Below, in pieces: positions 6,678 through 26,136 of a stretch of DNA of 64,000 nucleotides. Position 1 is the first letter of the stretch. Every line of letters begins with the position of its first letter. A model generated the notes under the pieces. That model was not told the DNA's origin. It saw only the letters and a list, made by a program, of their open reading frames with translations, and made no database searches. This DNA is from Psychromonas sp. CD1 (GTDB lineage Bacteria; Pseudomonadota; Gammaproteobacteria; Enterobacterales; Psychromonadaceae): assembly GCF_002239585.1 (NCBI RefSeq), contig NZ_NDFH01000002.1:62001-126000 (forward strand). The letters run 5' to 3'. The translations under genes were made by a program, and so were the position numbers.

Positions 6678-7364
6678 ATGGGACAGAAAGTTCATCCTAA
6701 CGGTATTCGCCTAGGTATCACTAAAGCATTTAGCTCTACTTGGTATGCTGGCACAAAAGAATTTGCAGATAATCTACATAGTGATTATCAAATACGTAAA
6801 TTTTTAACAGAGAAACTGAAAAATGCTTCTTTATCTAAAATTACAATTGAACGTCCTGCTAAAAGTGTTCGTGTGACTATTCATACTGCACGTCCAGGCG
6901 TTGTAATTGGTAAAAAAGGTGAAGATGTTGAGAAGCTACGCACAGCTATTGCTAAAATGGCCGGTGTTCCAGCTCAAATCAATATTTCAGAAGTTCGTAA
7001 ACCTGAACTTGACGCAAAACTAGTAGCAGATTCAATCTCTTCTCAGTTAGAGCGTCGTGTAATGTTCCGTCGTGCTATGAAGCGTGCGGTTCAAAATGCT
7101 ATGCGTCTTGGCGCTAAAGGCATTAAAGTTCAAGTTAGTGGTCGTTTAGGTGGTGCAGAAATCGCACGTGCTGAATGGTATCGTGAAGGTCGTGTGCCTC
7201 TACATACTTTTCGTGCCGATATCGATTACTCAACGTCTGAGGCGTTAACAGTTTACGGTATCATCGGTGTTAAGGTTTGGATATTTAAAGGTGAAGTTCT
7301 AGGTGGTTTACCACTACAACAAGAACAGCCATCTAAACCAAAACGCAAAGGTCGCGGTAAGTAG
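6678..7364 (+). CDS. rpsC: 30S ribosomal protein S3
   Basis: 228 residues (E. coli 233). The KH domain is clear, with [15 protein letters not shown] near residue 74. S3 forms the mRNA entry site with S4 and S5 and contributes to the ribosome's helicase activity. The C-terminal tail is basic ([10 protein letters not shown]). A GGGG ribosome-binding site lies just before the start, within the end of rplV. Confidence 0.98.
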
Positions 7365-21500: not shown

Positions 21501-22895
21501 TTAAAGGTTAAATTCTTTTAATTTGCGTGTTAAGGTGTTGCGTCCCCAACCGAGTTTCTGAGCTGCTTCTAATTTTTTACCATGAGTAAAAGATAAAGTA
21601 GTTTGTAACATTAATTTTTCTAGCTGAGGTAAGGCTTCACTTAGTAAATTTTGTTGTCCGTTTTGTAACGCGGAGCGAGTCCATTGTACCAGCATTTGTT
21701 GCCACTCAGGAGCATTGTTAGAATGGGTTGTTGTTTGCGCTTTGAGATCTAAAGGTAGGTCATGAATATGTATTTCTTGACCGCTGGCCATTACCGTAAG
21801 CCAGCGACATAAATTTTCAAGTTGGCGAACATTACCAGGCCACGCTAGGCTTTGTAAATATTTTTGACACTTCGCACTAATTTTTTTCTGTTCAACATTT
21901 AACTCTGTGGCAATTTGTTGTAAAAAATGCTGGCTTAATAAGGGGATGTCTTCGCGACGTTCTTGTAATGCCGGTAGCTGTAAACGTATAACATTCAAAC
22001 GGTGAAACAGATCTTCTCTAAAGTCCCCCTTTGCAACTTTTTCTTCTAAATTGTGATGTGTTGCTGCGATAATTCGTACATCAACGTGAACTTCTTGTGT
22101 GCCACCGATTCGATAAAAATGTCCATCAGAAAGAACGCGTAATAAACGCGTTTGGACATCTAAGGGCATATCTCCAATTTCATCAAGAAATAATGTACCA
22201 CCATCAGCTTGCTCAAAGCGTCCTGTTCGTTTTTGTACAGCGCCTGTAAAAGCACCTTTTTCATGGCCAAAGAGCTCGGCTTCAATAAGTTCTCTGGGAA
22301 TGGCAGCCATATTTAAAGCAATAAATGTTTGCGTGCGTCTAGGGCTATGCTTATGCAGGGCATGTGCAACAAGCTCTTTTCCGGTGCCAGATTGGCCATT
22401 AATCAATACATTCATACTTGATCGAGAGAGGCGCCCAATAACACGAAATACATCTTGCATCGCGGGTGCTTTGCCTATTATTTCTGGAGTATGTAATGCT
22501 ATTTCAGGCTGTGATTTCTTCTGTTTTAATTCTAAACTGTGACTAATTGCCCGTTGTATCATGATGCTAGCTTCATGAATATCAAACGGTTTGGGTAAAT
22601 ATTCAAAAGCGCCATTTTGATAAGCATTGACAGCACTGTCTAAGTCGCTGTGCGCAGTCATTATGATAATAGGGAGTTGTGGGAATTTTTGATGAATGCG
22701 TCGCATAAGCGCTAAGCCGTCTATACCCTGCATACGGATATCAGAGATAATCACTTCGGGTTGCTCGATTTGTAGCTGCTCCCACAAGCTTTCTGCGTCG
22801 GGAAAACTGGCATAACTTATCTGTTTTGTTTTTAGCGTACGCTCTAATACCCAACGAATGGCATGATCGTCATCTACTATCCATGCTGTTGCCAT
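21501..22895 (-). CDS. glnG: Nitrogen regulation response regulator NtrC (NR-I)
   Basis: 464 residues (E. coli 469). A receiver domain has VDDD at 7-10 and the phosphoacceptor Asp52 (SDIRMQGIDG). The sigma54-activating AAA+ domain carries Walker A GQSGTGKE and the sigma54-contacting loop GAFTGA. A C-terminal Fis-type helix-turn-helix ends the protein (LGWGRNTLTRKLKEF). When phosphorylated by NtrB under nitrogen limitation it drives glnA and other sigma54 promoters. It lies 12 nt after ntrB in the operon DUF4124 gene, ntrB, ntrC, and two likely binding sites sit before glnA. Confidence 0.97.
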   Translation of the reverse strand: MATAWIVDDDHAIRWVLERTLKTKQISYASFPDAESLWEQLQIEQPEVIISDIRMQGIDGLALMRRIHQKFPQLPIIIMTAHSDLDSAVNAYQNGAFEYLPKPFDIHEASIMIQRAISHSLELKQKKSQPEIALHTPEIIGKAPAMQDVFRVIGRLSRSSMNVLINGQSGTGKELVAHALHKHSPRRTQTFIALNMAAIPRELIEAELFGHEKGAFTGAVQKRTGRFEQADGGTLFLDEIGDMPLDVQTRLLRVLSDGHFYRIGGTQEVHVDVRIIAATHHNLEEKVAKGDFREDLFHRLNVIRLQLPALQERREDIPLLSQHFLQQIATELNVEQKKISAKCQKYLQSLAWPGNVRQLENLCRWLTVMASGQEIHIHDLPLDLKAQTTTHSNNAPEWQQMLVQWTRSALQNGQQNLLSEALPQLEKLMLQTTLSFTHGKKLEAAQKLGWGRNTLTRKLKEFNL

Positions 22896-22907: not shown

Positions 22908-23978
22908 TTATAAAATGATTGGTAAATAGATCAAAAATTCAGTTTGTGTGCTACAACTTTGGTATTCGATACGTCCATGATGTTGCTTTATGAGTGTTTG
23001 TGCAATCGATAATCCTAATCCGGTGCCTTTCTTTTTGCCAGTGACCATCGGAAAGAAAAGAGTATCTTGTAAATGTTTGCTAATACCCGGACCATTATCG
23101 ATTATTTTTATTTCTGCGACTAAACGTTGTGGTCTACCGTTAATTGTTATTTGGTGGGCACTACGCGTCCGGATAGTTATTTGCGCGTCGGGTGTATTGG
23201 CGCTACATAACGCTTGTACTGCATTTTGTACAATATTTAGGAAAGCTTGTTGTAGTTGATCTGATTGCATTTCAAAATCAGGGATACTCGGGTCATAATC
23301 CACTCGAATGCGGATGTTTTCGGGCAAATCTAATTGCACTAATTTACGCATTTTTTCTAGAGCCACATGGATGTTGTCCAATTTACGTGTACCTATTTTC
23401 GTTGGGCCCAGTAAACGGTCGACTAATGCGTTCAATCTATCAGCTTGTTGAATAATTATTTGAGTAAATTCTTTTAAATCTGCATTGGCTAATTCGGCTT
23501 CTAATAGTTGCGCAGCCCCGCGAAGTCCTCCTAATGGATTTTTAATTTCATGTGCCAAAGAGCGCATTAAATCTTGTGCTATTTGTTGTTGGTGTTGTTG
23601 GTAATAGACTTGTCGTGATTTACGTTGTTGGCTAATACCTTGCATTTCAATTAGTACATGCGCTTGGCTATTAAATGACAGAGGGCTAACACTTAAGTTT
23701 AAAAATAAAGATTTACCTTCAATTAATAACGAAACGTCACTTTGTGTAAATGAATTTTGGGTTTTAAATACTTTTTCAATATAGCGTTTATCAAAATGAA
23801 ACTGATGAGCGAGTTGGCTCAATGTTTGTGTGTAAAGGCGCTGAGTACTTTGTAAAAGTAATAATTCAGTTGCTGGATTCGCATAGATGACCTTTCCCCC
23901 TAGATGAATAACAAGAAAGGCAGTTTGTGCTTCTTCTAAGAGTATAAAGGGAAATTTTAGATCATTAGTTGATAACAT
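22908..23978 (-). CDS. glnL: Nitrogen regulation sensor kinase/phosphatase NtrB (NR-II)
   Basis: 356 residues (E. coli 349). It has an N-terminal PAS domain, an H-box AHEIKNPLGGLRGAAQLLEA carrying the phosphorylated His, and an ATPase domain with NIVQNAVQAL, DNGPGIS and GKKKGTGLGLSIAQ. NtrB phosphorylates NtrC when nitrogen is low and dephosphorylates it when bound to PII. It is cytosolic, as no membrane segment is seen. Only 6 nt separate it from the end of the broken DUF4124 gene, so a frameshift there could affect its translation. Confidence 0.96.
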   Translation of the reverse strand: MLSTNDLKFPFILLEEAQTAFLVIHLGGKVIYANPATELLLLQSTQRLYTQTLSQLAHQFHFDKRYIEKVFKTQNSFTQSDVSLLIEGKSLFLNLSVSPLSFNSQAHVLIEMQGISQQRKSRQVYYQQHQQQIAQDLMRSLAHEIKNPLGGLRGAAQLLEAELANADLKEFTQIIIQQADRLNALVDRLLGPTKIGTRKLDNIHVALEKMRKLVQLDLPENIRIRVDYDPSIPDFEMQSDQLQQAFLNIVQNAVQALCSANTPDAQITIRTRSAHQITINGRPQRLVAEIKIIDNGPGISKHLQDTLFFPMVTGKKKGTGLGLSIAQTLIKQHHGRIEYQSCSTQTEFLIYLPIIL

Positions 23979-23984
23979 TAGTTA

Positions 23985-24571
23985 TTATCTTTTTACTGTG
24001 GAGCGTAATAGGTGTATATGAATAATGGGGCTTTTATTCAGCACATTTGAGTTTTTGTCTAGCAAGTAAACTTGCAAGCTATGCGTACCTCGTGCGATAT
24101 TTTGAAGCCTAATGTTTGTAGAGTATTGAGCTTTTCCCACTTTAGTTGCATCAATGAATAATTGTAATCGATATGTTTGTTGCATGCGTGGTGATATATT
24201 TACCTGTACATTCAAAAGTCCATTATTGCTTCGTATAGACATATCATCGCGGGGGAAAATAATGTTGATTTCATGTGCAATTATTTTTATTTGTTGTGAT
24301 TTTACTTCTTTTTTAATTTCTTTTTCTATTCGTGCAGGTGTAACATTATTGATTTGTATGTTAATTTTTTTACTTCTTTTTTAATTTCTTTTTCTATTCG
24401 TGCAGGTGTAACATTATTGATTTGTATGTTAATAGGTTGTGTGTGATTTTGGGACCTATCGGAAAAGCGAACATTACCTTGTTTATCAATTTCTTTATAA
24501 ATTAAAGTCTCGGAAGCGTAAAGATTGCAACTAAGAAGGCTAAGACAAAATAGGTAAATAAAAAAAGGCAT
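23985..24571 (-). pseudogene. DUF4124-type envelope protein gene, frameshifted by a tandem duplication
   Basis: Two open frames together look like one gene. The upstream part (24571 to 24326, 81 codons) encodes a signal peptide (MPFFIYLFCLSLLSCNLYAS) and a DUF4124 start (IYKEIDKQGNVRFSDR). The downstream part (open into 23985, last 85 codons from 24242) encodes a beta-rich C-terminus. A 66-bp direct repeat with 68-bp period lies between them. Since 68 is not a multiple of 3, it shifts the frame. Removing one copy joins INNVTPARIEKEIKKEVKSQ into one 172-residue protein. DUF4124 proteins are often found between glnA and ntrB in marine gammaproteobacteria; their function is unknown. A sequencing or assembly error is also possible. 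Confidence 0.85.
24300..24433. repeat. Tandem direct repeat, 66 bp identical with 68-bp period
   Basis: 24300-24365 is repeated without change at 24368-24433, separated by 2 bp. Both copies encode the same peptide (INNVTPARIEKEIKKEV) on the minus strand but in different frames relative to the gene start. Perfect identity suggests a recent event. Confidence 0.95.
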
Positions 24572-24664: not shown

Positions 24665-24692
24665 CAAAAAACCCGCATATATGCGGGTTTTC
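24665..24692 (-). terminator. Rho-independent terminator after glnA
   Basis: A nearly perfect palindrome (24668-24692) forms a 10-bp stem with a TATA loop, AAAACCCGCA pairing with TGCGGGTTTT. Read on the minus strand it ends in a run of T (24671-24666). It lies 26 nt past the glnA stop and separates glnA from the ntrBC operon. Confidence 0.88.
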
Positions 24693-24717
24693 TTAAGATA
24701 AAAAAATTAAGATTCCG

Positions 24718-26136
24718 TTATACGCTGTAGTATAACTCAAATTCTTTAGGATGAGTCGCTTGAGAAACCGCTTCACACTCTGCTTTTTTTAGTTTAATAA
24801 AAGCATCAATGGATGAATTAGAGAAAACTCCACCGTGGAGAAGGAAATCTCTATCTGCATCGAGCGCCGCTAATGCTTCTTCAAAAGATACTGCTACTTG
24901 TGGGATTGAATCTGCTTCTTCTTTTGGTAAATCATAAAGATCTTTATCTAATGCTTCACCTGGGTCGATTTTATTTTTAATACCATCAAGACCGGCCATT
25001 AACATCACAGAAAACCCTAAATAAGGATTCATGGTTGGATCGGGGAAGCGTACTTCAATACGCGAAGCTTTAGGTGATGGTACCACTGGAATGCGGATAG
25101 ATGCACTGCGATTACCTGCAGAATATGCAAGCATTACAGGTGCTTCAAAGCCAGGGATCAGACGTTTGTATGAGTTAGTTGATGCATTTGTGTAAGCATT
25201 GATAGCTTTTGCATGTTTAATAATACCGCCAATATAATAAAGCGCCATTTGTGATAGGCCACCATAGAGGTTGCCAGAGAATAAATTAACACCATCTTTA
25301 GCGAGTGATTGGTGACAGTGATTACCAGAGCCGTTATCGCCAACAAGGGGCTTAGGCATAAAGGTTGCTGTTTGACCATAGGCATGAGCAACATTATGTA
25401 CTACATATTTATATATTTGCAATTCATCTGCTTTTTTTACTATGGTATTAAAGCGACAGGCGATTTCATTTTGACCTGCGGTGGCAACTTCATGATGATG
25501 CGCTTCAACGACAAGGCCCATCTCTTCCATGATTAAACACATCGCCGATCGAATGTTTTGGGCGCTATCTACAGGGGAAACAGGAAAGTAACCACCTTTA
25601 ATTCCAGGACGATGTCCCGTATTACCTTCTTCATAAACAGTGCCCGAGTTCCAAGCAGCTTCTTTTGCATCAATGGCATAAAAAGCGCCATTGATGTTAT
25701 TTGAATAACGCACGTCATCAAAGAGAAAAAATTCAGGCTCTGGTCCAAAAAGAATGGTATCTGCAATTCCCGTTGAACGCATATATGCTTCTGCACGTTT
25801 AGCGACGGAGCGTGGATCGCGATCATAGCCAAGCATTGTTTTCGGCTCTAGTACATCACAGCGCAAGTTAAGAGTTAGATCATCGGTAAAAGGGTCAATG
25901 ACGGCAGTACTCGGGTCGGGCATTAAAATCATGTCTGAGTCTTGAATTCCTTTCCAACCGGCAATAGATGAGCCATCAAACATTTTTCCGTCTTCAAAAA
26001 AGTCTTCGGTAACTTGGTGGAATGGAACGGAAACGTGTTGCTCTTTGCCGTGCGTATCAGTAAAACGTAAATCAACGAATTTCACGTCTTGCTCTTTAAT
26101 AAGATTAAGTACGTCTTGTGCAGTGTTTACAGACAT
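24718..26136 (-). CDS. glnA: Glutamine synthetase, type I
   Basis: 472 residues (E. coli 469). The enzyme makes glutamine from glutamate, ammonia and ATP and is the entry point for ammonium. Family blocks include [13 protein letters not shown], the metal-binding [17 protein letters not shown] (catalytic loop) and [19 protein letters not shown]. The adenylylation site Tyr is in DKDLYDLP near residue 400, so control by GlnE is likely. Its upstream region has a sigma54 promoter and two NtrC sites. A terminator separates it from the ntrBC operon. Confidence 0.98.

Follow-up and report, generated by a model that had tools for sequence, protein, structure and literature searches.

Exact tandem copies are generally unstable in bacteria, runs of adenines can give rise to -1 frameshifting of the dnaX type, and in yeast the loss of a flap endonuclease, as in rad27, is linked to short duplications. 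In promoters, gene output can vary with the number of copies of a tandem unit, a form of phase variation in which copy-number variants occur across strains and within populations (PMC12817950, in the sections available). Reduced symbiont genomes, e.g., those of Portiera lineages without a working dnaQ, can be unstable and repeat-rich, and Portiera is described as having microsatellites, large intergenic regions and rearrangements (accessible parts of PMC7821994); in symbionts of vesicomyid clams, recA was lost without a significant effect on the density of short repeats (PMC5310779, in the part available). The locus described here, which lies just before ntrB in Psychromonas sp. CDP1, shares with promoter repeats a tandem unit whose copy number could change gene output, and with reduced symbiont genomes the probable inactivation of a gene by a small duplication, in a genome that is host-associated and reduced in size. 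It differs from the former in that only one state of the CDP1 locus is known, and from Portiera in that the CDP1 genome is compact and carries two-copy duplications of 23-78 bp.

The window, by which we mean the whole 64-kb stretch of DNA analysed, lies on contig C2 of a public assembly of 1,688,234 bases in 3 contigs. This is almost certainly the genome of Psychromonas sp. CDP1, obtained from the gut of an amphipod of the hadal Challenger Deep (Zhang et al. 2018, PMC5893861), for which the accessible parts of the paper report three contigs, 1,688,241 bp, a GC content of 36.9% and a completeness of 99.3%; the completeness computed here was 79.9%. The main text of that paper, in the form available, uses none of the words duplication, repair, recA and mutS.

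Between glnA and ntrB, a gene for a DUF4124-like protein contains two copies of a sequence, identical over 66 bases and separated by 2 bases, which gives a start-to-start distance of 68 (Table 1). No second direct repeat of at least 30 bases lies within 2 kb of its copy across the 64-kb window (exact seed of 16), and since the 66-base repeat is the sole one of this kind reported there, it is far beyond chance. The repeat unit is itself divisible by three, and the frame is broken by the 2 extra bases, which fall within seven consecutive A of the coding strand. As a consequence, the N-terminal ORF, whose beginning looks by eye like a signal peptide, leaves its frame and stops within the second copy, while reading the gene with one copy gives 172 residues. 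The first-pass annotation had described the perfect 66-bp direct repeat with its 68-bp period, the splitting of one frame into two ORFs, the 172-residue protein that removal of one copy restores and the end of the gene 6 nt before ntrB; all of this is borne out by the repeat search and the sequence itself, the one-copy translation and the position of the ntrB ATG (23978).

Table 1. Coordinates of the split gene, its repeat and its neighbours in the window, and of the further duplications that touch genes (positions with an L prefix belong to other sampled stretches).
Feature	Position	Strand or gene
ntrC-like response regulator gene (presumed name); full-length against the closest relative, G010	21501..22895	-
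ntrB; PAS, HisKA and HATPase_c domains; starts 6 nt past the stop of the broken gene	22908..23978	-
C-terminal fragment: linker and Ig-like domain, 131 codons open, first in-frame ATG at 24242	23985..24380	-
Second copy of the repeat (66 bp), read in the frame of the C-terminal part	24300..24365	-
2 extra bases between the copies, in the seven-A run; bring the step to 68 and so disrupt the frame	24366..24367	-
First copy of the 66-bp repeat (coding direction), in frame with the N-terminal part	24368..24433	-
N-terminal fragment, 81 aa, ATG start; DUF4124-like region, linker, out-of-frame tail and stop	24326..24571	-
Terminator-like hairpin past glnA	24666..24693	-
glnA, glutamine synthetase	24718..26136	-
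Frame-breaking exact duplications of 58 and 76 bp	L073:17180, L087:5981	gspD and YfgM-like TPR gene, respectively
Exact duplications of 76 and 74 bp repeating the 5' end, whole gene left	L093:15737, L095:7294	NapA-like oxidoreductase and DUF1414 gene, respectively

Both pieces align to adjoining parts of a single protein of the closest relative (G010), encoded at the same glnA-ntrB locus. A similarity search with NtrB returned 28 named loci, the four closest being from Psychromonas (65-67% identity). The C-terminal part of the gene is present in 22 of the 23 other genomes of the genus, with no match in the 23rd, and is unsplit in all 22: the frame has 181-219 codons in 21 of them and 125 in the remaining one, a 51%-complete genome in which it sits at the end of a contig. 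Thus none of these relatives keeps the two parts as separate genes, a possibility that the first-pass annotation had raised. Moreover, the spacing between the FSD and RSN motifs, which is 53-62 residues in 25 relative loci (20 distinct proteins), is 52 residues in the window gene read with one copy. Because the relatives are unsplit and the motif spacing fits one copy, the one-copy state is, as judged from these comparisons, ancestral and the two-copy state derived. The copies are exact and absent from relatives, as expected of a recent tandem duplication, and the 2 filler bases make the junction not perfectly blunt; the proposed recent splitting of a single gene therefore holds as to its derived nature, and its recency is probable. 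Across the window, 80 ORFs from a 240-kb part of G010 find matches, 75 of them over at least 85% in one frame, 3 partially and 2 in split form (one being the DUF4124-like gene, the other an ORF that runs antisense to two intact genes), and the remaining genes of the window look whole.

The N-terminal piece scores 16.2 bits against DUF4124 (PF13511), below the Pfam cut-off of 22, and the G010 protein 27 bits, above it. The C-terminal piece gives weak Pfam matches to BiPBP_C and Big_7, both below their cut-offs; three proteins queried against NCBIfam gave no match, and a search for the DUF4124 family found none in the CDP1 assembly and none in 14 control genomes either, so that it is not informative. 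The Psychromonas hadalis homologue was modelled from a 6-row alignment; the best of five models (mean pLDDT of 71.8 against 40.1 to 63.1 for the others) predicts an Ig-like C-terminal domain at a block pLDDT of 90-95, with linker residues 53-84 of low confidence (pLDDT below 50). Foldseek likens the modelled domain to FnIII-like and similar modules (19 matches with E of 0.001 or better), and alignment places the 66-bp repeat in the linker. The CDP1 gene has the signal-like N-terminus, the DUF4124-like region, the C-terminal Ig-like domain and the position just before ntrB of the secreted DUF4124 proteins of Psychromonas, from which it differs by a frameshift split seen only in CDP1 among the genomes searched.

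Given the terminator-like hairpin after glnA, the broken gene may be the first of a separate unit that continues with ntrB and the gene downstream of it, which from its sequence we take to be ntrC-like. Among the 20 genus loci in which ntrB could be placed (22 were considered and 2 yielded no ntrB), ntrB begins -1 to 12 nt after the stop codon in 19 and 56 nt after it in the other one, and this tight spacing makes an effect of the split gene on NtrB plausible.

The duplication is not alone in this genome. In 784,000 bases of the assembly (46%), sampled as the window plus 36 stretches with a GC content of 36.8%, the search found 13 tandem duplications of two exact copies each, with periods of 23-78, as compared with 2 in 936,232 bases of seven relatives, i.e., about 17 versus about 2 per Mb; with a minimum period of 23 and a two-copy filter that were fixed after a first look at the data, the excess has p = 0.0013 against all seven (conditional binomial) and p = 0.003 against the three complete relatives alone (13 in 784 kb versus 1 in 640 kb). 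The filter admitted periods of 23-600 and copy lengths between the period less 4 and 1.4-fold the period, without inner periodicity. It left out the multi-copy arrays L084 and L091, L072:14924 (42/34) and L086:4554 (33/25), the short-period or shorter matches L075, L083 and L103:13380, and the imperfect pairs L092:5139 (66 bp, 98.4%) and L100:171 (136 bp, 96.2%), which are perhaps older duplications that have diverged; arrays and imperfect pairs were excluded from the control genomes by the identical filter. The two control matches kept are L126 (175/171, in the complete genome G005) and L146:3286, a similar two-copy duplication of 68/75 bp in the 51%-complete genus relative G012.

Read by eye, start codons included, 8 of the 13 duplications are intergenic, 2 lie at 5' ends and leave the gene whole, and 3 break a gene; names of surrounding genes without a Pfam match are presumptive, being assigned from their sequences. 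Besides the DUF4124-like gene, the broken ones are gspD, in which GspD/secretin domains flank the duplication on either side, and that of a TPR_21 protein like YfgM, likewise with its domain on either side. At GC-matched random positions, 9.3 of 13 would be expected in genes (P of 0.0001 for 3 or fewer and of 0.007 for 5 or fewer), and such avoidance of genes would be expected of real mutations under purifying selection. At the 12 blunt junctions, the mean number of shared bases is 1.08 versus 0.745 for random ends, which is no clear enrichment of microhomology. Copy lengths end near 79 bp, and three repeats are exactly 76 bp long. In the open-access literature searched, so far as its texts were available, no direct bacterial precedent for such short tandem duplications was found.

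The history of the assembly bears on how these duplications are to be read. According to the accessible parts of its description, CDP1 was assembled from Illumina 2 x 125 bp reads with MegaHit and then with SPAdes, using the pooled reads of six metagenomes (SRP071106) and trusted contigs, and eight gaps were closed via T-vector cloning, Sanger sequencing and manual linking (PMC5893861). With Illumina and some Sanger sequencing used, a nanopore homopolymer error is an unlikely source of the seven-A run. At one place on contig C3 (L163:11440-12420, about 1179440-1180420 of C3), cloning-vector polylinker and lacZ-region sequence surrounds an insert sharing 83% identity with E. coli rmuC across 392 bases and carrying the same primer-like sequence on both flanks; this is a false gap closure in the public assembly. 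A query with vector and insert gave 15 matches, all on C3, at five places. Four of them contain vector sequence (214458-215688, 444592-445481, 866922 and 1179380-1180450), which was inspected at the first, third and fourth, and foreign inserts were seen at two of the four. The fifth place, near 7108, matches only the primer-like sequence at the ends of the insert and may be its true genomic site.

The explanation that we prefer, with confidence barely above even, is that a recent homology-independent tandem duplication (66 bp plus 2 filler bases), one of many, has started a pseudogene in a shrunken genome. In this scenario, a short tandem duplication would have arisen in the linker of the gene for a secreted DUF4124 / Ig-like protein, shifting the frame so that translation would normally yield just the 81-residue N-terminal fragment, without the Ig-like domain, and the gene would have become a starting pseudogene. 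The duplications would arise by template switching or a similar process without homology, a look they have because their ends share hardly more bases than chance, and would mostly be tolerated between genes and in genes that the symbiont can spare. The repeat, the divided frame, the undivided gene in relatives and the excess and placement of the duplications are observations; that the duplications are real mutations, how they arise, the loss of function and any polar effect on ntrB are inferred. A single small duplication breaking one gene is ordinary when taken alone; as one of many in the reduced genome of a host-restricted bacterium, it would be an instance of genome decay caught under way. 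A wider proposal, of which we are doubtful enough to offer it only tentatively, is that CDP1 is undergoing a genome-wide burst of homology-independent tandem duplications of 23-78 bp, with the split DUF4124 gene as one of its products; such a burst would be a mutational signature of genome reduction at an early stage, and the loss of recombination or of mismatch repair might underlie it.

The most serious competitor, possible in our view and yet short of probable, is that the real gene has one copy and that, here and at the other sites, ends that overlap in the pooled short reads of mixed strains were linked without being merged. The reassembly of pooled metagenome reads with trusted contigs and manual linking speaks for this, as does the vector at four C3 places, two of them with foreign inserts seen; that all three in-gene duplications break the frame also fits, and the end of copy lengths at 79 bp, with three at exactly 76, raises the suspicion of an assembler word-length effect. 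The upper limit, however, would also be that which short reads impose on real duplications, and longer ones, collapsed by such reads, may exist in CDP1. Furthermore, all 15 vector or insert matches are on C3 while the window is on C2, an argument that bears on Sanger joins only, and 13 sites in 46% of the assembly extrapolate to about 28 genome-wide, which exceeds the 16 ends of eight closed gaps. The placement avoids genes beyond what GC content explains, although strain differences could also gather between genes, and errors of assembly should tend to lose repeat copies by collapse, not to gain them (PMC12817950, sections available). On balance we lean, little more than evenly, towards duplications that are real rather than artefactual.

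Readings that give the duplicated state a function seem far less probable. The first-pass annotation had proposed a switchable on/off state. In such a switch, slippage would remove and restore a copy, and production of the DUF4124/Ig-like protein, and perhaps of NtrB, would alternate under selection; a step of 68, which is not divisible by three, the distance to ntrB (6 nt here and at most 12 nt in 19 of 20 relatives) and the general instability of exact tandem copies would suit it. However, similar duplications occur at 12 further sampled sites, the gene is split in none of the 22 relatives that have it, so that the repeat-split state is not conserved at the locus, and a single state is known from collections with one genome for each species. 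With 13 similar duplications, 8 of them intergenic, a general process, be it mutational or of assembly, suffices and no dedicated switch is needed; we did not retain this proposal and regard it as very improbable. We would likewise be surprised if ribosomes or RNA polymerase slipped on the seven-A run to yield a functional protein of 195 residues with a longer linker. As in dnaX-type -1 frameshifting, a slippery run of A lies in phase at the junction (A AAA AAA), where a backward slip enters the second frame, and the low confidence of the linker in the model of the relative hints that extra length might be tolerated. In contrast to dnaX, the 101 nt folded downstream contain no stimulatory structure (-1.7 kcal/mol, z 0.04, no more than in shuffles) and the heptamer is common in CDP1, being found in phase in 186 of 583 ORFs of at least 150 aa, with 232 occurrences versus 258 expected after codon shuffling (sd 9.5); it is therefore no special signal, and programmed -1 frameshifting was rejected on these grounds. 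In addition, FSD and RSN would lie 75 residues apart in the slipped product (52 plus 23), farther than the 53-62 found in relatives.

Turning back to the pseudogene reading and to what might have caused the duplications, loss of RecA and MutS was considered and set aside. No RecA domain match, no RadA-like match and no MutS match was found in the CDP1 assembly, whereas RecA (in full length) and MutS are each present in 22 of the 23 other genus genomes, the exception for both being the 51%-complete G012; MutL is found in all 24 genomes of the genus. The vector place at 1179380 of C3, with its foreign insert, adjoins rlmJ; in G010, it is recA-pncC-mutS and two further genes that lie on that side of rlmJ. 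Because of this false join beside rlmJ and the computed completeness of 79.9%, the apparent absence of RecA and MutS is no proof of loss and cannot be trusted; the genes may just be missing from the assembly. That recA loss left short-repeat density without significant change in the vesicomyid clam symbionts was a further reason to set this cause aside. The public CDP1 assembly thus needs re-examination before gene losses such as those of recA and mutS are read from it. As far as gene presence goes, there is no support for loss of a flap endonuclease as a cause: CDP1 has an open PolA-like frame that includes the 5' nuclease domain (946 codons) and an open frame for a second 5' nuclease (285 codons); that of ExoI (508 codons) is open as well.
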